Shown here: one piece after another, positions 3,484 to 60,432 of the stretch | Numbering within the stretch: the stretch's first letter is position 1 | Layout of the letters: the number at the start of each line of letters is the position of its first letter | Assembly (NCBI GenBank): GCA_031291075.1 | Contig: JARLJS010000095.1 | Location: 1 to 64,000 of the forward strand | Length of the DNA: 64,000 bases | Direction: 5' to 3' | DNA from: Nevskia sp. | GTDB lineage: Bacteria; Pseudomonadota; Gammaproteobacteria; Nevskiales; Nevskiaceae | Notes under the pieces: model-generated | What the model saw: the letters and a program-made list of their open reading frames with translations, nothing else | Told to the model about the DNA's origin: nothing | Database searches by the model: none | Position numbers and translations under genes: made by a program

Positions 3484-5727
3484 TTACTGATTGCTCACGC
3501 AGGCCTCATAGACATCGAGCTGGCCGATCACCGACAGCAGCCCGCCGTTGCTGACCTGCACCGTGTCGAACGGCCTGCTGGCCTGGAAGCTCAGGAAGCC
3601 GCCATTGACGTTGCCGACCGGGATGGTGAGCAGGCCTACGCCGAGCGTGCCGCTGGCCAGCGTCACCGGGCCGTCCGCCGGCTTGCCGGCGAGCTCGGTC
3701 GACAGCGACACCGAGCGCAGCAGGCTGGCGGTGAGCAGCTCGTTGGGCGCCGCCACGATGAAGCCGACGGTGCGTCCGATCGGGAACACGGTCGGCGTGG
3801 TATTGCTCAGGCTCGGTCCGACGGTGAGCGTCTCCGTGCCCAGGATTCCCACCGCGTTGTTGATCACCGAGTACGGCTTGGTGGCCTGCGTCACGCCCGG
3901 GGTCACCACGTTCTGCGGCTGGCTCACCGAGCACCCCAGACAGCCGCCGGATGAGGCGTCGCTCTCGACGTAGGGCGTCGCCAGCAGGCCGGTGCTGGGC
4001 TGGCCGATGCCGCAGTCGTCCGCCACCGAGGCGCCGCTGACGGTGAGCAGGGCGTTCGCCGCGGCGCTACCCGAGGGGCCGGTGCACACCAGCGTGTACG
4101 AGTAGGCCCCGGCGTTGCTCAGCACGCCGGTGCTGGAGGTGCCGGACAGCGGTTCCGAACCGCTCCAGGAGCCGCTGGCGGTGCACGAGGTGGCGTTGGT
4201 CGAACTCCAGGTGATGATCGACGACTGGCCGGGCTGGATCGAAACCGGGTTGACCGCGATCGTCACCGTGGGCGGCGGCGGCGTGCCCACCGTCACCGTG
4301 GTCGAGCTGGAGGCGCTGCCGTTGGGGCCGCCGCAGGTCAGGGTGTAGTTGTAGACACCCGCGGTGTTGAACGGACCCACCGGGTAGCTCGGCGGCGCGT
4401 TGGCCGTCGGCTGACTGCCGCTCCAGTTGCCGCTGGCGGAGCACACGCTGACGTTGGTGCTGCTCCAGGTCAGTGACGAACTGCCGCCCACCGCCACGCT
4501 GGCCGGCGTGGCGGTGATCGTCACCGTCGGCATCAGGCTGCTCGACACGAACAGGTTGGTGACGTTGGCGCCGGAGCCGCCCGGACCGGTGCAGGACAGC
4601 ACGTAGCTGTAGGTGCCTGTGGTCGACGGCGCGGTGACGTTGAAGGTCCCGCTGGTCGGCTGGGACCCCGTCCAGTTGTCGTCGCCGTCACCGCCGGAGG
4701 CGGAGCAGGTGCTCGCGTTGGTGGTCGACCAGTACACCACGGCCACCTGGCCCGGCTGGATCGAGGACGGGCTGACGTTGATCGTCACTGTCGGCGCCGG
4801 AACCGGGCCCACCGTCACTGATGCGGTGCCCACGCCGCTGCCGGAGGCGTCGGTGCAGGTCAGCACGTAGCTATAGGTGCCGACGGTAGTGGATGCGGTG
4901 ACGCTGCCGCTGCCGCTGCCGGGCTCCGCTCCCTTCCATGGGGCCGCGCCGGTGCCGCCGGATGCCACGCAGGTCGCGCTCGGATCCGACGACGACCAGC
5001 TCAGGGTGAGCGAAGCGCCGGCCTGGACCGCTGCGGGAGTGGCGGTCAAGGTCACCGTGGGGCCGGTACCGCCGCCGCTGGAGGAGGAACTACTGCCCGA
5101 GGACGAGGAGCTGCCCGACGAACTGCTGCTCGATGACGACGAACTGCCGGATGACGAACTGCTGGATGACGAGCTGCTCGACGACGAAGAGCTGCCCGAC
5201 GAGCTGCTGCTCGAGGAGCCGCTGCTGGAAGACGAGGAGCTGCCCGACGACGAGCTGCCGCCCGACGAACTGGAGGAAGAGCCGCTGCCGCCCGTCACGG
5301 TGACCGAGGTCGTGCCGACCGCGCTGCCGCTGGTGTCGGTGCAGGTCAGGGCGTAGCTGTACTGGCCCGCCGTGCTGGGGGCCGTGATGGTGGTGCCGGC
5401 GCTGAACGCGGGCTCTGGGCCCGCCCAGCCATCGGTGCCGTTGCCGACGCCGCCGGATGCGGTACAGCTGGCACTCTGGTCGGAGGCCTGCCAGGCGAGC
5501 AGGAATGTTTGGCCGGCCGCCACCATGCTGGACGAGGCGGTGATGGTCACCGTGAGCCCGGAGCCGCCGCTGCTGCTGCCTGACGAACTGCCGCCGCTGC
5601 TGCTGCTGGATGAGCTGCCGCTGGCGTTGCCACTGTCGGCGGAGCAGCCCGCCAGCGCCAAGCCTGCGCACATCAGCAACGCACTTGCGCCGCGTGAAAG
5701 CGCTCCAAATCCGATCCTGCCTTCCAT
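3484..5727 (-). CDS. Secreted lipoprotein with poly-Ser/Gly linkers and about five tandem Ig-like repeats
   Basis: Lipobox LALAGCSAD; Ser/Gly tracts; repeated units of the form VTITATPASVxxGxSxxLTWSSTNxxxCxASG...GxYxYxLTCTGPxGSxxxxxxxVT. Confidence 0.8.
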   Translation of the reverse strand: MEGRIGFGALSRGASALLMCAGLALAGCSADSGNASGSSSSSSSGGSSSGSSSGGSGLTVTITASSSMVAAGQTFLLAWQASDQSASCTASGGVGNGTDGWAGPEPAFSAGTTITAPSTAGQYSYALTCTDTSGSAVGTTSVTVTGGSGSSSSSSGGSSSSGSSSSSSSGSSSSSSSGSSSSSSSSSSSSSSSGSSSSSSSSSSGSSSSSGSSSSSSGGGTGPTVTLTATPAAVQAGASLTLSWSSSDPSATCVASGGTGAAPWKGAEPGSGSGSVTASTTVGTYSYVLTCTDASGSGVGTASVTVGPVPAPTVTINVSPSSIQPGQVAVVYWSTTNASTCSASGGDGDDNWTGSQPTSGTFNVTAPSTTGTYSYVLSCTGPGGSGANVTNLFVSSSLMPTVTITATPASVAVGGSSSLTWSSTNVSVCSASGNWSGSQPTANAPPSYPVGPFNTAGVYNYTLTCGGPNGSASSSTTVTVGTPPPPTVTIAVNPVSIQPGQSSIITWSSTNATSCTASGSWSGSEPLSGTSSTGVLSNAGAYSYTLVCTGPSGSAAANALLTVSGASVADDCGIGQPSTGLLATPYVESDASSGGCLGCSVSQPQNVVTPGVTQATKPYSVINNAVGILGTETLTVGPSLSNTTPTVFPIGRTVGFIVAAPNELLTASLLRSVSLSTELAGKPADGPVTLASGTLGVGLLTIPVGNVNGGFLSFQASRPFDTVQVSNGGLLSVIGQLDVYEACVSNQ

Positions 5728-51950: not shown

Positions 51951-52679
51951 ATGATCGTGCGCGTGATGCGGAAGGGCGGGCGCTGCGTCCTGCTGCCGGC
52001 GGCCCTGGCCTGCGCCGGGCCGGCCGGCGCGCAGGGGTGGGGCGGCTCCCTCGGCGTGTCCAGCGACAACGTCTACCGCGGCCAGACGCAGAGCCACAAC
52101 GAGCCGTCCGGCCAGGCCGACCTGCACTACTACGGCCGCTCCGGCTGGTTCGCCGGGTTGTCAGCGTCCAGCATCAAGCGCAGCCCCTACGATTCGACCA
52201 GCGCGGAGTTCGAACCCTACCTGGGCTGGCAATGGCAGCTGACCGACCCGTGGAGTGCCCGGGTCGCCGCGGTACACCACGACTATCCCTGGAACAACCC
52301 GGGCCGTCGCTACAACTACGACGAACTGACCGGTACCGTCGGCTATGCCGACCGCGCCTTCCTGACCGTGGCGGCCTCGCCGGACGTCTCGATCGACGGC
52401 CCCTACGCCAGCGCCACCGGGCGCGCCGCGCTGGTGTACGAGCTGGCCCTGCACCAGCCCCTGCAGCACGCGCTTTCGGTCAACGCCGGCGTCGGTTACT
52501 ACGACCTGCGCTGGGCGGCCGGCACCGGCTACGTCTACTGGAATGCCGGCCTGGGCTGGGACCTGGGGCGGGTCCAGCTCGACCTGTCGTACCTGGGCAC
52601 CGACGGCGTGGCCCGCCACCTGTTCTACAGCGGCGTGGCCGTCAACCGCCTGGTGGCGACCGCCCTATGGCACTTCTGA
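51951..52679 (+). CDS. TorF family putative porin (TIGR02001-like)
   Basis: Signal peptide, then GGSLGVSSDNVYRGQTQSHNEPSGQADLHYYGRSGWFAGLSASS; C-terminal VATALWHF. Confidence 0.82.
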   Translation: MIVRVMRKGGRCVLLPAALACAGPAGAQGWGGSLGVSSDNVYRGQTQSHNEPSGQADLHYYGRSGWFAGLSASSIKRSPYDSTSAEFEPYLGWQWQLTDPWSARVAAVHHDYPWNNPGRRYNYDELTGTVGYADRAFLTVAASPDVSIDGPYASATGRAALVYELALHQPLQHALSVNAGVGYYDLRWAAGTGYVYWNAGLGWDLGRVQLDLSYLGTDGVARHLFYSGVAVNRLVATALWHF

Positions 52680-52800
52680 GCGCCCCGTCACCGGTTTGCA
52701 ACCTTTTGCCGTCTCCGCAGCACTCACCGACAGGAGCGACAACCCGTTCGTGAAATCTGGTGCCATGCGTGCGACAGCCGTGAGTCAAAAGGAGGGAAGG

Positions 52801-53370
52801 GTGGCCGACAACAGCCGTGAGCTGCTGCTGCTGGGCCTGACGGCCCAGGGCGACCGGCCGTCCTTCGAGACCCTCTACCGCAGCTACCATCCGCGGCTGT
52901 CGCGCTTCCTGTCGCGGCTGACCCAGCGCCAGGACCTGGTCGAAGAGGTGGTGAACGATACCTTTTGGGTAGTGTGGCAGAAGGCCGGGGAGTTCCGCGG
53001 CACCTCGCTGGTGTCGACCTGGATCATGGGCATCGCCTACCGCTGCACGCTGAAGTCGCTGCGCCGTTCCGGGAGCGCCCTGTCGGAGCCGCTTGCCGAC
53101 TACGAGGACCCGGCGGCGTCCGCGTTGCAGATCGAGCACGAGCTGCGCGACTGGATCGGCAAGGGCATGCGCCACTTGCCGCTGGAGCAGCGCACCACTC
53201 TCGAGCTGGCGTATTTCCTCGGCCACTCCTGCGAGGAGATCGCCGGGATCTTGGATTGCTCCGTAGGTACGGTGAAGGCGCGCATGTTCCACGCGCGGGT
53301 CAAGCTGCGCAACCTGCTGCCTTCGCTCGGCGGTATCAAGGAAAGGGACCGGTATGAACCACTCGGATGA
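52801..53370 (+). CDS. ECF-type RNA polymerase sigma factor
   Basis: FETLYRSYHPRLSRFLSRLTQRQDLVEEVVNDTFWVVWQKAGEFRGTSLVSTWIMGIAYR; region 4 LPLEQRTTLELAYFLGHSCEEIAGILDCSVGTVKARMFHARVKLRNLL. GTG start after aaggagg RBS; ATG at 52765 also possible. Confidence 0.93.
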   Translation: MADNSRELLLLGLTAQGDRPSFETLYRSYHPRLSRFLSRLTQRQDLVEEVVNDTFWVVWQKAGEFRGTSLVSTWIMGIAYRCTLKSLRRSGSALSEPLADYEDPAASALQIEHELRDWIGKGMRHLPLEQRTTLELAYFLGHSCEEIAGILDCSVGTVKARMFHARVKLRNLLPSLGGIKERDRYEPLG

Positions 53371-54025
53371 GATTGTTTCCAGCCACCGCACGACGTGGGA
53401 GCTGATCCCCTGGGTGGTGAACGGCCGCGCGTCCGCCGAGGAACGGCGGATCGTGGAGCAGCACCTGGCGGAATGCGGAGACTGCCGCGACGAGCTCGCC
53501 TTCCAGACGCGCCTGAGCAGCGCCATCGGCGCCGAGACCCAGCCGGTCGCCGACCCGGAGCCGGCGCTGCAGCGGCTGTGGCAGCGCATCGACGGCGTCG
53601 AGGTCGAGGCGCCGCCGCGTCGCCGCGTCGCCGGCCTGCCGCTGGCGCGGGGACTGCTGATGGCCGTGGTGGTGGAGGCGGTGGGCATCGCCCTGCTGGG
53701 CGGCGCGCTGTGGAACCGCACGGCGCCGCAGGGCGGGGGGCCCTACGTCACCTACAGCGAAAAGGCACCCGTGGTGCCGGGCGCCACCATTCACGCGGTC
53801 CTCGCCCCCGATCTCAAGCTGAGCGAGCTGCAGTCGCTGTTGCAGCAGTCGGGGCTGCAGATCGTCGGCGGCCCGGGCGATTCCGGCGTTTACTCGCTGG
53901 CGCCGCTGTCCGCGTCGGCGGTTGCCTCCGCCGCGACGACCCAGGCCCAGCTGGAGCGCCTGCGGGCAAACCCGGCGGTGCGCCTGGCGGAGCCGATCGA
54001 GACGGCGCCGCGACGGGGCTCGTGA
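53354..54025 (+). CDS. Anti-sigma factor (zf-HC2/ZAS) with one TM segment and periplasmic domain
   Basis: Zinc motif HHxxxC-type (VEQHLAECGDCRDELAFQ), TM GLLMAVVVEAVGIALLGGALW, overlaps the sigma factor gene. Confidence 0.88.
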   Translation: MNHSDEIVSSHRTTWELIPWVVNGRASAEERRIVEQHLAECGDCRDELAFQTRLSSAIGAETQPVADPEPALQRLWQRIDGVEVEAPPRRRVAGLPLARGLLMAVVVEAVGIALLGGALWNRTAPQGGGPYVTYSEKAPVVPGATIHAVLAPDLKLSELQSLLQQSGLQIVGGPGDSGVYSLAPLSASAVASAATTQAQLERLRANPAVRLAEPIETAPRRGS

Positions 54026-55314
54026 TGCGGCTTTGCGCGGCGCTGCTGGCGGCGGGCCTGGCGGCCTGCTCCGGCGTGCCCGCGCGCGTGGTGGACTCGG
54101 CGCCCACGCGGCAGGACCCCGGCCGCCTGATCCTGCTCACCGTGGCCAATCCGCCGGAGATACTGGCGCTGCGTGCGGGCTCGACGCTGCGCGGCTATGA
54201 CATCTCTCCGGCCTACCGCCAGAGCGGCAGCGCCCAGGCGCTGCTGGACGGCATCGAAAGCGACTACGGCCTGCGCGAGGTGGCGGCCTGGCCGATTGCG
54301 CCGCTGCAGGTGCACTGCGTGGTGTTGCAAATCCCGGCCGGCGCCTCGCGCCAGGCGTTGCTCGAGCGGCTGGCGCGCGACGCGCGCGTGAGCCTGGCGC
54401 AGCCGCTGCAGTCCTTCGCCACCCTGGCGGGCGATTACAACGATCCTTACTTCGGCTTGCAGCGCGGCTTCGCGCAGATCGACGCCGGCGGCGCCCAGCA
54501 GTGGTCGCGCGGCGAGGGCGTGCGGGTGGCGGTGATCGACACCGGCGTCGACGGCGGCCATCCCGACCTGCAGGGGCGCATCGAGGCGCAACGCAACTTC
54601 GTCGATGACGATCCGCGCCAGTTCGGCGCCGACCGCCACGGCACCGAGGTGGCCGGCATCATCGCCGCCGACGCCAACAACCGCGAAGGCATCGTCGGCG
54701 TGGCGCCGGGCGTGCATATCCTCGCGCTCAAGGCCTGCTGGCAGGTGCAGGCGCGCGCCGATGCCGCCCAGTGCAATTCGTTCACCCTGGCGCAGGCGCT
54801 GACCATTGCGATCGAGTCCGGCGTCCGCGTCATCAACCTGAGCCTCGGCGGGCCGCCCGATCCGCTGCTCACGCAGCTGGTGGAATATGCCTTGCGGCGC
54901 GGCGCGGTGGTGGTCGGCGCCGTGCCGCCCGACGGTCGCACCGACGGCTTTCCCGTCGGCATCGCGGGCGTCATCGCGGTCGATACGCCCGAACACGTTG
55001 CATCCGGCGGCGCGGTTCTGCGCGCGCCCGGGCACGAGGTGCTCACGCTCACGCCGGGCGGCCACTACGATTTCGTCTCCGGCTCCTCGCTCGCCGCGGC
55101 GCACGTGAGCGGCGCGGTGGCGCTGCTGCTCGCGACCGATGCGCGGCTCGACGGCACCGCCGCTTACGGCCTGCTCAAGCGCACCAGCGAGGGCGGCTCC
55201 GGCGCCGACAGCATCAACGTGTGCGCGGCGCTCGCGGTGCTGCGCAGCGGCGGCGACTGCGGCGCGGTGCCGGCGTTTCCCTCGATGCCGGCGGGCTCTT
55301 CGACGCCGCGCTGA
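54025..55314 (+). CDS. S8 family subtilisin-like serine peptidase, lipoprotein
   Basis: Lipobox LLAAGLAACSG; catalytic motifs VAVIDTGVDGGHPDL (D), DRHGTEVAGIIAA (H), FVSGSSLAAAHVSGAVALL (S). Abuts the anti-sigma gene. Confidence 0.9.
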   Translation: MRLCAALLAAGLAACSGVPARVVDSAPTRQDPGRLILLTVANPPEILALRAGSTLRGYDISPAYRQSGSAQALLDGIESDYGLREVAAWPIAPLQVHCVVLQIPAGASRQALLERLARDARVSLAQPLQSFATLAGDYNDPYFGLQRGFAQIDAGGAQQWSRGEGVRVAVIDTGVDGGHPDLQGRIEAQRNFVDDDPRQFGADRHGTEVAGIIAADANNREGIVGVAPGVHILALKACWQVQARADAAQCNSFTLAQALTIAIESGVRVINLSLGGPPDPLLTQLVEYALRRGAVVVGAVPPDGRTDGFPVGIAGVIAVDTPEHVASGGAVLRAPGHEVLTLTPGGHYDFVSGSSLAAAHVSGAVALLLATDARLDGTAAYGLLKRTSEGGSGADSINVCAALAVLRSGGDCGAVPAFPSMPAGSSTPR

Positions 55315-55427
55315 ATCGCCTCGTCTCTTCCGCGCGCAAGATAGCCGCTTTCGACTCAACCGATCTCCGCAGGTGTGGCACTCACGCTGGCAGGACGTGA
55401 ATGCACACCCCTTCAAGGAGACACGTG

Positions 55428-56681
55428 ATGAGATCGCATTGTGGCTTGGCGAAAGAACTGGTTCTGGGTGCTGCGGTCGTCTGCGGCCTGGCGGCTTGCA
55501 GCGGCGGCGGCATGTCCGATCCCATCAGTAGCAGCAATAGCTTGAGCGGCGGCAACAGCAGCGGTGGCAGCAGTAGCAGTAGCAGCAGCGGCGGCGGAAC
55601 CGCCGCCGGCGCCTTCGCCGTCACCAACCTGGTCTCCGACGGCGCGGCCGGGTTTCCCGCCGCGCACCAGGACATGACCCATCTGGTCAATCCCTGGGGC
55701 ATCGCCTTCGAACCCAACGGCGTGGTGTGGACCGCCAACAACGGCACCCAGACGTCGACGCTCTACGACGGCACCGGTACCGCGCAGGGCCTGGTCGTCA
55801 ACCTGCTCAACACCAGCAATGGCCAGTTCGATCCCACCGGCGTGGTCTACAACGGCAGCGCCGACTTCATCGTCAGCCAGGGCGCGGCGTCCGGCGCGGC
55901 CGAGTTCATCTACGACGGCGAGGGCGGCGCGCTCGCGGGCTGGTCGTTCTCCACCGGCAGTACCGCCGTGACCGTGTACGACGACGGCGCCGGCAAGGCC
56001 GTCTACAAGGGCCTGGCGATCGCCAACACCGCCGGCGGCAACCGCCTCTACGCCGCCGACTTCCATAACAACAAGATCGATGTGTTCGACCGCGCCTTCA
56101 ACAAGATCGCCGTCAGCGGCGGCTTCAAGGACGCCACGTTGCCGGCGGGCTACGCGCCGTTCAACATCCAGGCGCTCGGCGGCATGCTCTACGTCACCTA
56201 CGCCGAGCAGATGGCGCCCGCCAACCACGACGAGGTGGACGGCGCCGGCCTCGGCCTGGTCGATGTCTACGACTACGAAGGCAACCTGCAGCAACACCTG
56301 GTTCCCGTCGGCGGCGCCCTCAACGCGCCGTGGGGCCTGGCGCTGGCGCCGGCCGGGTTCGGCTCCGTCGGCGGCGACCTGCTGGTCGGCAACTTCGGCG
56401 ACGGCAGGATCAATGTTTACAACCCGTCCAGCGGCAGCTTCGTCGGCATGCTCGCCGGCACCAACGGCAATCCCGTTGCCATCCCGGGCCTGTGGGGCAT
56501 CTCGTTCGCCAACGGCGGCAATACCCTGTTCTTCGCCGCCGGCATCAACGACGAGGCCGACGGTCTCTACGGACGCATCGACGTGTCCGCAGTCGCGTCC
56601 GGCGGCAGCAGTTCCAGCTCGGGCGGCGGCGGCTCCAGCAGTTCGAGCGGCGGCGGTTCCAGCGGCGGATACATGTACTGA
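55428..56681 (+). CDS. TIGR03118-type secreted lipoprotein with Ser/Gly-rich tracts at both ends
   Basis: Lipobox VVCGLAACSGG; SSSSSSSGGG linker; FAVTNLVSDGAAGFPAAHQDMTHLVNPWGIAFEPNGVVWTANNGTQTSTLYDG; C-terminal GSSSSSGGGGSSSSSGGGSSGG. Confidence 0.85.
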   Translation: MRSHCGLAKELVLGAAVVCGLAACSGGGMSDPISSSNSLSGGNSSGGSSSSSSSGGGTAAGAFAVTNLVSDGAAGFPAAHQDMTHLVNPWGIAFEPNGVVWTANNGTQTSTLYDGTGTAQGLVVNLLNTSNGQFDPTGVVYNGSADFIVSQGAASGAAEFIYDGEGGALAGWSFSTGSTAVTVYDDGAGKAVYKGLAIANTAGGNRLYAADFHNNKIDVFDRAFNKIAVSGGFKDATLPAGYAPFNIQALGGMLYVTYAEQMAPANHDEVDGAGLGLVDVYDYEGNLQQHLVPVGGALNAPWGLALAPAGFGSVGGDLLVGNFGDGRINVYNPSSGSFVGMLAGTNGNPVAIPGLWGISFANGGNTLFFAAGINDEADGLYGRIDVSAVASGGSSSSSGGGGSSSSSGGGSSGGYMY

Positions 56682-56777
56682 TCACGCGCCGTATCCATTC
56701 ACGGGCCCAGCCCCGGCAGCCGGAGCCGGGCCCGAACCACCCGTTCGCTGTTTGCGATTCAGCAGGAGGGTAAGCCC

Positions 56778-57104
56778 ATGCTGCGATTTCCAGCATTGAT
56801 TCTCTGCACCAGCTTGTTTTGTTCCACGCCGGCGGGCGCCGCGGGGATGGCGCAGCCCGGTGATCAGACCGTCCGCGAGGTCTGCTCCGGCTGCCACGGC
56901 AGCGGCCTGCTCGGCGCGCCGCAGATCGGCAACGGCGCCGCCTGGTCGGCGCGGCTCAAGGCCGCGGGTTCGGTCGACGGCCTGCTCGCCTCGGCCGAGA
57001 ACGGCAAGAACAACATGCCGCCGCGCGGCGGCGTACCCGATCTGAGCGACGCCGAATTGCGCGCGGCGATCGAATTCATGCTCGCCAGCAGCGGCATTCA
57101 TTGA
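56778..57104 (+). CDS. c-type cytochrome (cytochrome c5-like)
   Basis: Signal peptide; VCSGCHGSGLLGAPQIGNGAAWSARL; axial Met NNMPPRGGVPDLSDAELRAAIEFML. Confidence 0.92.
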   Translation: MLRFPALILCTSLFCSTPAGAAGMAQPGDQTVREVCSGCHGSGLLGAPQIGNGAAWSARLKAAGSVDGLLASAENGKNNMPPRGGVPDLSDAELRAAIEFMLASSGIH

Positions 57105-58471
57105 AAGGAGCAACTGTGTCGTACACCAATATCCGGACGATTCCGCGCGCCGCCGCGCTGTTGCTGGCCGGCTGGCTACTGAGTCCCACGGCCCTGGCCG
57201 TGCCCAGCTACGCCCAGCAGACCGGGCTGCCCTGCACCAGTTGCCACACCATCGCTTTCGGCCCGGGCCTGACGCCGTTCGGGCAGGACTTCAAGCTCAA
57301 CGGCTACGTCTGGAACGGCGGCAAGTCGGACCTGCCGCCGGTGGCTGCCATGGTCATCTCCTCCTTCACCCACACGGAAGCGGCGCAGGACGGCGGCGCT
57401 GCGCCGCACTTCAGCCCCAACGACAACGGCGCGGTGGACCAGACCAGCCTGTTCTACGCCGGCAGGATCCTCGAGCACCTGGGCGCTTTCGCGCAGTTCA
57501 CCTACGACGGCGTGGCACAGCGCCTGCACTGGGACAACCTCGACCTGCGCTATGCCGACAAGGGCAAGCTCGGCGGCACCGAGCTGGTGTGGGGCGCCAC
57601 GCTCAACAACAACCCCACCGTGCAGGACCTGTGGAACACCACGCCGGCCTGGAGCTACCCCTATGTTTCGTCTGCGCTCGCGCCGACTCCCGCCGCCGCA
57701 CCTCTGATCGAAGGCTCGCTGGCGCAAGAGGTGTATGGCCTCACCGCCTACACCATGATCGCAAACCACTACTACATCGAAGGCGGCGCTTACCGCAGCC
57801 TGCCCGACCGCGCGCTCAGCGTACTGGGCGTCGGTGCCGGCTCCGTCAACCGCTTCCACGGCGTGGCGCCGTACTGGCGGCTCGCCTATCGCTTCAAGCA
57901 AGGGCCGTCCTATGGCTCGATCGGCGCCTTCGGCATCGACGTGCACCAGTATCCAGGCAGCGACCCCAGCGCCGGCACCGACCGCTACGCCGATCTCGGC
58001 TTCGACGCGGTCTACGGTTACACGCGCGGCCGCCATGGCTTCCTGCTGCAGGCCACGCAGGTACACGAGGTGCAGAAGCTGCCCGCCTCGCTGGCCACGG
58101 GCGTCGTCGGCCAGGGTTCGAACGAGCTCAACAGCACGCGCATCAACGCGCAATACACCTGGTCGCAGACCTACGCCTTCAGCGCCGCGCTGTTCCGCGT
58201 CTATGGCGGCAGCGACCCCACGCTCTACGCGCCCGGCGCCATCTCCGGCAGCGCCAGCGGCAGCCCGGACAGCCGCGGCTACATCACGCAGGTGGAATAC
58301 GTACCCTTCGGCAAGGCCCGCTCCTGGCTGCGGCCCTGGGTCAACCTGCGGCTGGGACTGCAGTACGTCTACTACACCGAGTTCAACGGCGGCGGCGCCA
58401 ACTACGACGGCTCCGGCCGCTCCGCGCACGACAACAACACGCTGTACCTGTTCGCCTGGCTGGCGATCTGA
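57101..58471 (+). CDS. N-terminal mono-heme cytochrome / outer-membrane beta-barrel fusion (Cyc2-like cytochrome-porin)
   Basis: Signal peptide, VPSYAQQTGLPCTSCHTIAFGPGLTPFGQDFKLNGYV heme motif, then about 400 aa with alternating barrel-like strands ending in LYLFAWLAI. Confidence 0.72.
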   Translation: MKGATVSYTNIRTIPRAAALLLAGWLLSPTALAVPSYAQQTGLPCTSCHTIAFGPGLTPFGQDFKLNGYVWNGGKSDLPPVAAMVISSFTHTEAAQDGGAAPHFSPNDNGAVDQTSLFYAGRILEHLGAFAQFTYDGVAQRLHWDNLDLRYADKGKLGGTELVWGATLNNNPTVQDLWNTTPAWSYPYVSSALAPTPAAAPLIEGSLAQEVYGLTAYTMIANHYYIEGGAYRSLPDRALSVLGVGAGSVNRFHGVAPYWRLAYRFKQGPSYGSIGAFGIDVHQYPGSDPSAGTDRYADLGFDAVYGYTRGRHGFLLQATQVHEVQKLPASLATGVVGQGSNELNSTRINAQYTWSQTYAFSAALFRVYGGSDPTLYAPGAISGSASGSPDSRGYITQVEYVPFGKARSWLRPWVNLRLGLQYVYYTEFNGGGANYDGSGRSAHDNNTLYLFAWLAI

Positions 58472-58490
58472 GCAACTGCATGCCCGCGGC

Positions 58491-60320
58491 TCAGCCTGCA
58501 GCCGCGCGCGCGGACGGCCACAGCCGCTCGATCTTCAGCACGCGCTCGCAGTCGCGTTCCTCCTGCAGGTCCTTCAGGCGGCCCTGCAGCAGGTCCTCGA
58601 TCACGATCAGCCCGAGCACCCGGGTCGTATCCTCGCGCGCGACCACCGGCAGCGAGGATACGCGGCGGTCGGCCATGCGGTTGGCCACCTCGCGCAGGGT
58701 CTCGTCCGGGTAGGCCAGCACCGCCTCCGTCACGGCGATGTCGTGCACACTGCGGTCCGCCGGGGCGCCGGCGCCCATCAGCGCCGCATCCAGCAGCGCA
58801 CGCCGCGTCACCACGCCCAGCAGCCGGCCGGCGCCGTCCACCACCGCGTACAGGCGCTGGCGCTTGAGCCCGAGCGGGTCGTCCGCCGCGGCGGCGCCGG
58901 CGCGCTGCGCCAGCCGCTGCTCCGCGCCGAGCGCGGTGTAGTCGCGGTGCATCACCTCGGACACGAACAGCACCTCCAGCGGGTCGACCGAGTATTCGCG
59001 GCTCAGGTGCACGCCGCGCCGCGCCACCTTCTCGGTCAGCACCGAGCGGCGCAGGGTCAGCACCGACACGCCGTAGGCCGCGGTGGCGGCCACCGCCAGC
59101 GGCAGCAGGGCGCCGTAGTCGTGCGTCAGCTCGAGCGAGAAGATCACCCCGGTCAGCGGCGAGCGCATCACGCCGCCGACCACCGCCGCCAGGCCCAGCA
59201 GCGCCCAGAACCCCGGCGCCACCGCCGGGAACACCTGCGCCTCCAGGGCGCCCAGCGCCGCGCCGATCATGAAGGTCGGCGCCAGCACGCCGCCGGAGGT
59301 GCCCGAGCCGAGCGAAAGGGACCAGATCAGCGTCTTCACCACCAGGATGCCGACGACCAGGGACAGCGCCGCGCGGCCCTGGATCAGCTCGGCGATGACG
59401 TCGTAGCCCACGCCGAGCGCGCGCGGCTCCACCAGCCCGCCGACGCCGATGATCAGCCCGCCGATGGCCGGCCACCACATCCAGTGCAGCGGCAGCCGCT
59501 TGAACTGGTCCTCCGAGAAATAGACGAGCTGGGTGGCGACGATCGCCAGCCCGCCGGCCAGGATGCCGGACAGCAGGCAGCAGGCAAGTGTGCCGGGGCC
59601 CAGGTGCAGGGCGACGTCGGGCACCGGGAACACCGCGGCCGTCCCCATAAGGTAGCCGCGGCACACGGTGGCGACGATCACGGCGGCGGCCACCGGCAGG
59701 AAGCTGCGCGGCCGCCACTCGAACAGCAGCAGCTCCACCGCCAGCAGGATCGAGGCCAGCGGCGCGTTGAAAGTGGCGGCCATGCCGCCCGCCGCGCCCG
59801 CCACCAGCAGCGTCTTGCGCTCGTCGGCGGTGACGTGCAGGAGCTGGCCGATGAGCGAGCCGAAGGCGCCGCCGGTCATGATCACCGGCCCTTCCGCGCC
59901 GAAAGGACCGCCGGTGCCGATGGTGACCGCCGCCGACACCGGCTTGAGCAGCGCCACCCGCGGCGACACCCGGCTGCCCTTGCGCAGGATGGCGTCGATC
60001 GCCTCCGGCATGCCGTGGCCGCGGATCGCCTCCGAGCCGTAGCGCGCCATCAGGCCCACCACCAGCCCGCCCGCCACTGGCGCCAGCAGGATCAGCCAGG
60101 CGCTGTGCGCTGTCCCGCCCGGCGCCACCAGCGCGGTGGACCAGCGCTGGTAGAACACCAGGTTGGTGATCAGCCCGATCAGGAGCTGCAGCGCCTGCGC
60201 CAGCGCGGCGCTGAGCGCGCCCACGCCCAGGGCCAGGGCGCACACCAGCAACACGCGGGGCGAAGTGGAGAAGTCGCCCAGGCGGGTGAGCGCGCGGGGA
60301 TGATCGTCGGACGTGGACAT
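58491..60320 (-). CDS. CLC family chloride channel/antiporter with CBS domains
   Basis: GHGMPEAIDAIL; GTGGPFGAEGPVIMTGGAFGSLIGQ; GSGTSGGVLAPTFMIGAALGAL; C-terminal CBS pair. Confidence 0.94.
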   Translation of the reverse strand: MSTSDDHPRALTRLGDFSTSPRVLLVCALALGVGALSAALAQALQLLIGLITNLVFYQRWSTALVAPGGTAHSAWLILLAPVAGGLVVGLMARYGSEAIRGHGMPEAIDAILRKGSRVSPRVALLKPVSAAVTIGTGGPFGAEGPVIMTGGAFGSLIGQLLHVTADERKTLLVAGAAGGMAATFNAPLASILLAVELLLFEWRPRSFLPVAAAVIVATVCRGYLMGTAAVFPVPDVALHLGPGTLACCLLSGILAGGLAIVATQLVYFSEDQFKRLPLHWMWWPAIGGLIIGVGGLVEPRALGVGYDVIAELIQGRAALSLVVGILVVKTLIWSLSLGSGTSGGVLAPTFMIGAALGALEAQVFPAVAPGFWALLGLAAVVGGVMRSPLTGVIFSLELTHDYGALLPLAVAATAAYGVSVLTLRRSVLTEKVARRGVHLSREYSVDPLEVLFVSEVMHRDYTALGAEQRLAQRAGAAAADDPLGLKRQRLYAVVDGAGRLLGVVTRRALLDAALMGAGAPADRSVHDIAVTEAVLAYPDETLREVANRMADRRVSSLPVVAREDTTRVLGLIVIEDLLQGRLKDLQEERDCERVLKIERLWPSARAAAG

Positions 60321-60432
60321 GGATCGGCAGGCGTCGAAACGGAGGGCGAAACCTAGCATACTCAGTACCATGTAACGACCAGCGGCTTCCGGGCCGGTAG
60401 GCCCCCGGCAGTCGCCGGCCCGCTTCCCCCTC

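Follow-up and report, generated by a model that had tools for sequence, protein, structure and literature searches.

A Cyc2-related fused cytochrome–porin and its one-electron carrier neighbours in Nevskia sp.

The cytochrome–porin gene and its surroundings

The window, by which we mean the whole stretch of 64,000 nucleotides of Nevskia sp. DNA that was analysed, contains a small gene for a mono-heme cytochrome c followed, on the same strand, by a gene for a porin that carries a heme motif of its own (Table 1). The porin is laid out as a signal peptide ending in ALA, then VPSYAQQTGLPCTSCHTIAFGPGLTPFGQDFKLNGY, one CXXCH and about 380–400 residues of beta-rich sequence; the open frame, signal peptide, quoted peptide, single CXXCH and roughly 400 beta-rich residues described in a first-pass annotation are all present. 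Two details of that description are revised. It had the two genes overlapping by 4 bp, but, judged from the sequence, the porin gene most likely starts at GTG 57116, which is preceded by AAGGAG, and not at TTG 57101, leaving a gap of 11 bp; since TTG 57101 shares bases with the stop codon of the preceding gene, the overlap is an artefact of start choice. It also gave the protein an aromatic C-terminus, which is the norm of the family (FAWLAY/F), although the window copy ends in Ile. Homologues of 32–60% identity span the entire barrel, and this whole-length homology rules out an artefact or chance open reading frame.

The product of the upstream gene, described at first pass as a small c5-like cytochrome, is a mono-heme cytochrome c; we take it to be c5-like from its motif MPP.GG...LSD, together with its identity of up to 62% to a cytochrome that 37 of 41 relatives possess. 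It is 60% identical to a paralogue in its own genome (C8:12073), and given these two resemblances the gene probably arose by duplication. A promoter and terminator scan of 55250–58600 returned nothing on the coding strand, and a GC-rich hairpin at about 56702–56734 is barely better than shuffled sequences.

Further upstream, genes for an ECF sigma factor, a zinc-finger anti-sigma factor and an S8 subtilase stand in a row (52543–55314), the C-terminal part of the anti-sigma factor weakly resembling a protease prodomain. They are followed at 55401–56681 by a gene of the TIGR03118 family (E 7.6e-99), whose product is Ser/Gly-rich in stretches at either end, and a similar Ser/Gly tract is carried by a lipoprotein-like ORF at 3484–5727 on the reverse strand. 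The upstream ECF sigma, anti-sigma, S8 peptidase, TorF and TIGR03118 genes are left out of the interpretation because they were not found near relatives of the porin.

Table 1. Positions of the features at the cytochrome–porin locus, in window coordinates
Feature	Position	Strand	Basis
Small mono-heme cytochrome c (c5-like), 108 aa, probable periplasmic electron partner	56778..57104	+	PF13442 E 1.1e-13
Shine-Dalgarno AAGGAG serving GTG 57116	57105..57110	+	sequence
Cyc2-like fused cytochrome–porin CDS, 451 aa, GTG start	57116..58471	+	ORF, Shine-Dalgarno, homologues
Signal peptide, probable cleavage after A28 (ALA/VPS)	57116..57199	+	sequence; A28 and P30 invariant in 71 homologues
AVPSYAQQT, counterpart of Cyc2 AXPXFAR[Q/K][T/Y] with two substitutions	57197..57223	+	
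Single heme c motif CTSCH	57233..57247	+	kept in 71/71 homologues
TIAFGPGL: PXL with the five-residue spacer before it, typical of the FGP clade	57248..57271	+	
Lys60, candidate sixth heme ligand (putative role)	57293..57295	+	present in 70/71
Predicted 16-strand outer-membrane barrel	57341..58468	+	AF2 (low to medium confidence); Foldseek to 16-strand porins
ClC-type channel gene, convergent; lies outside the possible transcription unit and marks its limit	58491..60371	-	PF00654

Keffer et al. 2021 (PMC8406198) name OprO and OprP as fold relatives of Cyc2. Structure prediction for the window protein gave 16 strands both from three sequences (pLDDT 40, pTM 0.39) and from four sequences with the mature chain (pLDDT 52, pTM 0.59). 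With the second AF2 model Foldseek returned 57 PDB chains at E <1e-3, the leading ones mostly 16-strand porins and OprO and OprP among them at TM of about 0.45, which supports folding as a porin barrel; the first model too matched 16-strand porins. Of the 16-strand barrel with a heme plug named as a check at first pass, the models, at pLDDT 40–52, show the number of strands, but the heme domain is poorly defined in both (pLDDT under 45 in the second), and a closed barrel holding a heme plug is a putative arrangement.

Relationship to Cyc2 and distribution of the family

Cyc2 is a marker gene used for microbial iron oxidation. When the family of the window protein was compared with presumed zetaproteobacterial Cyc2 profile to profile (hhalign), the match had 99.5% probability and an E-value of 1.5e-22 over 295 columns, running from the signal peptide past the heme and well into the barrel, and blastp against members that we presume to belong to Cluster 1 gave single matches down to 2.6e-7. 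In a tree of 71 homologues (IQ-TREE, LG+C20) the presumed Cluster 1 rows, which serve here as the Cyc2 reference, are set apart with support 100/99, and the window protein falls outside them, in a clade of 24 sampled members with support 92/92 (98/93 in a tree of 58 rows). This clade, termed FGP, has five residues, including a GP pair, between CXXCH and PXL, one member (L038) having a one-residue deletion there; elsewhere the spacer is four residues in presumed Cluster 1 and three in most other rows, and a length of five recurs in one further, small clade (CHAGGQFP).

In the definition of Keffer et al. 2021 (PMC8406198), a Cyc2 is a porin of 16 strands and 365 aa or more that has AXPXFAR[Q/K][T/Y], CXXCH and, four residues on, PXL. 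The window protein has a single CXXCH near the N-terminus after its signal peptide, a length of 451 aa and, from the hhalign comparison above, homology well beyond E 1e-5. Upstream of the heme it has AVPSYAQQT, with F changed to Y and R to Q, and its PGL comes after five residues instead of four; because neither of these two defining features is present in its published form, we do not class the protein as Cyc2. PXFAR[Q/K][T/Y] occurs in 6 of the 24 FGP members as against 12 of the 13 presumed Cluster 1 rows, and a motif screen would therefore drop most of the FGP clade. All 71 heme domains share A28, P30, Q35, C40, C43, H44, G56 and F59, and 70 share K60. As no second His or Met is conserved within the heme domain, Lys60 is the only near-invariant candidate there for sixth ligand.

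On the evidence of these alignments the protein is a cytochrome–porin homologous to Cyc2, in a separate clade. The first-pass suggestion, that the protein either diverges within Cyc2 or is a relative with another function, agrees with the homology, the architecture and the neighbouring carrier gene, but the published motif and the clade of its own, outside presumed Cluster 1, speak against strict membership. FGP sequences may already lie, unremarked, within the published Cluster 2 or 3. In the open-access literature, which is part of the whole and entered here in excerpt, no description was found of a spacer-defined FGP clade or of carrier exchange beside cyc2-like genes.

Neither Pfam nor NCBIfam holds a family that matches the cytochrome–porin, and PDB sequence searches with it gave nothing useful. 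Relatives of 36–59% identity occur in 9 of 61 related genomes searched: 7 of 18 from the window's own genus, one more from its family and one more from its order. A scan of genome contigs yielded only two relatives and a viral collection one, and plasmids of Polymorphobacter, Caballeronia, Acidiphilium, Paraburkholderia, Methylocystis and Ideonella carry relatives of 33–43% identity. With a 16-row profile at E 1e-10 or better, members turned up in 53 of the 369 class genomes and 86 of the 399 phylum genomes, many of those in the phylum by the N-terminal heme domain alone. Most matching genomes of the phylum draw belong to one family of small genomes (f211) that shows the textbook motif AIPAFARQTGAACLSCHFQSFPTL, presumably Zetaproteobacteria (Mariprofundaceae), in which cyc2 is near-universal according to PMC7029218.

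On the contig IMGVR_UViG_3300029955_001365, classed as viral, phage tail-type genes immediately precede, at the cut end, a cyc2-like gene (L105:4899-6227) that has the FGP spacer; this may be host DNA beside a prophage or cargo carried by a phage. On the Acidiphilium multivorum plasmid pACMV3 (L032:5890-7258) the annotation breaks the cyc2-like gene into two frames, unlike a near relative on pACRY03, which is intact; the neighbouring c-type cytochrome of pACMV3 remains.

Carrier neighbours and the host genome

A gene for a one-electron carrier lies beside the porin gene in 18 of the 24 FGP members, namely a mono-heme c2-type cytochrome in 15, nearly always immediately downstream, and a HiPIP, a cupredoxin and, in the window, a c5-like cytochrome in one each; the c2, c4 and c5 labels follow from motifs and the number of hemes rather than from dedicated models. 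The HiPIP belongs to the closest relative (G017, L016; 59% identity), 48 bp downstream (PF01355 E 2.2e-22), and the cupredoxin to G777 (L116), 21 bp downstream of the porin (PF00127 E 1e-9). The remaining six members show no adjacent carrier gene; they include L017, among the two nearest relatives of the window protein, which was traced across a contig break into L025 (139-bp overlap) with no carrier gene alongside. In the clades outside FGP, diheme c4-type cytochromes prevail as neighbours.

Among long loci a carrier adjoins 10 of 22 cyc2-like genes as against 3 of 77 control ORFs (Fisher p 8e-6), by a strict count that misses cupredoxins. The type of carrier tracks the porin tree, with 14 changes against a mean of 29 when shuffled and none of 200 shuffles as low, a clustering that related rows inflate. 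Since c2, HiPIP and c5-like partners all occur within the window's genus, the carrier has been exchanged there, and such swaps among relatives suggest a plug-and-play electron inlet. The first-pass proposal of electron transfer to a periplasmic c5-type cytochrome is well supported, by gene neighbourhoods across the family, as far as a periplasmic carrier is concerned, but the c5-like partner is a property of this locus and not of the clade.

The host genome, 97% complete, encodes a second Cyc2-like protein (G000:C256:633-1985; L002/L015), homologous over its whole length at 37–41% identity; it differs from the window porin in its canonical AVPLFARQT, its three-residue spacer and the diheme c4-type cytochrome gene downstream. 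The genome also has four heme-copper oxidases (COX1 genes) and one HiPIP, encoded elsewhere than at the porin locus. RuBisCO was not found in it, so Calvin-cycle lithoautotrophy on iron is unlikely, and a heterotroph that would gain extra electrons from a soluble donor fits this gene content.

Proposed role and related systems

Taken together, we consider it probable that the protein acts as an outer-membrane conduit for single electrons, from an extracellular reductant through the fused heme and the neighbouring cytochrome c to a heme-copper oxidase. The 16-strand barrel would admit a small extracellular reductant to the single heme c, held by the N-terminal plug at the periplasmic mouth of the barrel; the heme would hand electrons one at a time to the soluble c5-like cytochrome encoded just upstream, which would ferry them on to the oxidase. 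The inward direction of flow and the pairing with the c5-like protein are both what we infer from the locus and its relatives. By homology Fe(II) leads the candidates for donor, a choice we make tentatively.

A narrower form of this explanation is a true Fe(II) oxidase, equivalent in function to characterised Cyc2, with which a cell that is heterotrophic in other respects would respire Fe(II). This is a serious possibility, if short of an even one: the homology to Cyc2, the carrier neighbour and the oxidases of the genome agree with it, and Fe(II) oxidation is on record for representatives of each of the three published Cyc2 clusters (Keffer et al., PMC8406198), but the diagnostic motif is lacking, the heme loop differs in length, the clade is separate, the host is without RuBisCO, and the same authors caution that the function of distant homologues is uncertain. 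PMC12442390 adds that cyc2 expression does not of itself track iron oxidation. It is rather unlikely, though worth weighing, that the same conduit serves another soluble donor, e.g. Mn(II), reduced sulfur species or phenolic or humic reductants, or several donors. The wide spread of the family over plasmid- and chromosome-borne loci, including those of Caballeronia, Methylocystis, Ideonella and Acidiphilium, is in keeping with this, as is the proposal of Cyc2 for Mn(II) in Manganitrophus (PMC9040806), but no donor-specific gene is conserved around the family. A point in favour of another donor comes from one FGP relative (L111:4356-10001; G380), whose cyc2-like gene has downstream of it, on the same strand, a very large exported ORF of more than 1,250 aa. 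This ORF recalls the giant Mn-oxidising multicopper oxidases, but its multicopper-oxidase match is weak and, at E 0.003, below the Pfam cut-off.

The neighbouring carriers bear on two further readings, both less likely because the partners come from unrelated families of high-potential carriers. That the porin dumps periplasmic electrons onto extracellular acceptors is improbable: the same parts could in principle run in either direction, but the partners are HiPIP, cupredoxin, c2 and c4 proteins, and multiheme quinol-oxidising cytochromes do not recur among the neighbours of the family. Very improbable is a solute porin gated by, or sensing through, its heme and not routing electrons at all, for although the barrel makes up most of the protein, this would leave the repeated independent pairing with unrelated one-electron carriers without a reason.

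A broader proposal, which we put forward as doubtful, takes the FGP clade for a separate and widespread class of electron inlet in the outer membrane that a screen with the published Cyc2 motif mostly overlooks. Its periplasmic carriers (c2, c5-like, HiPIP, cupredoxin) would be interchangeable, to the point of being swapped between members of a single genus, and through it heterotrophs would respire some soluble donor in addition to Fe(II) or in its place. The presence in one cell of a canonical paralogue and of a porin from a sister clade, which keeps the architecture but departs from the motif, offers a direct way of asking what the extra copy oxidises, and the swap of c2, HiPIP and c5-like carriers among species of the genus amounts to a natural test of which periplasmic protein accepts the electron of the heme plug.

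Considering known systems, the 16-strand porins OprO/OprP, OmpF, Omp32 and DcaP share the predicted barrel fold with the window protein, but they have no heme and about 10% identity to it. MtoAB and PioAB likewise combine a barrel and heme to pass electrons across the outer membrane to a periplasmic carrier, MtoD or the HiPIP PioC (PMC10654088 and general background); they do so with a separate decaheme protein and a 26-strand barrel, in contrast to one heme fused to the porin, and no gene for a multiheme cytochrome, of the kind that accompanies the 26-strand porin in MtrAB, MtoAB and PioAB, adjoins the window porin. Also among the closest known systems are the Cyc2 proteins themselves, e.g. 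A. ferrooxidans Cyc2, Mariprofundus Cyc2PV-1 and Leptospirillum Cyt572 (Keffer et al. 2021, PMC8406198), which likewise have a signal peptide, a single CXXCH preceded by A.P...Q(T) and followed by PXL and FG..FK, a predicted 16-strand barrel of about 400 aa and a periplasmic carrier as partner, and from which the window protein is set apart by its AVPSYAQQT, its five-residue spacer between CXXCH and PXL and its separate clade.
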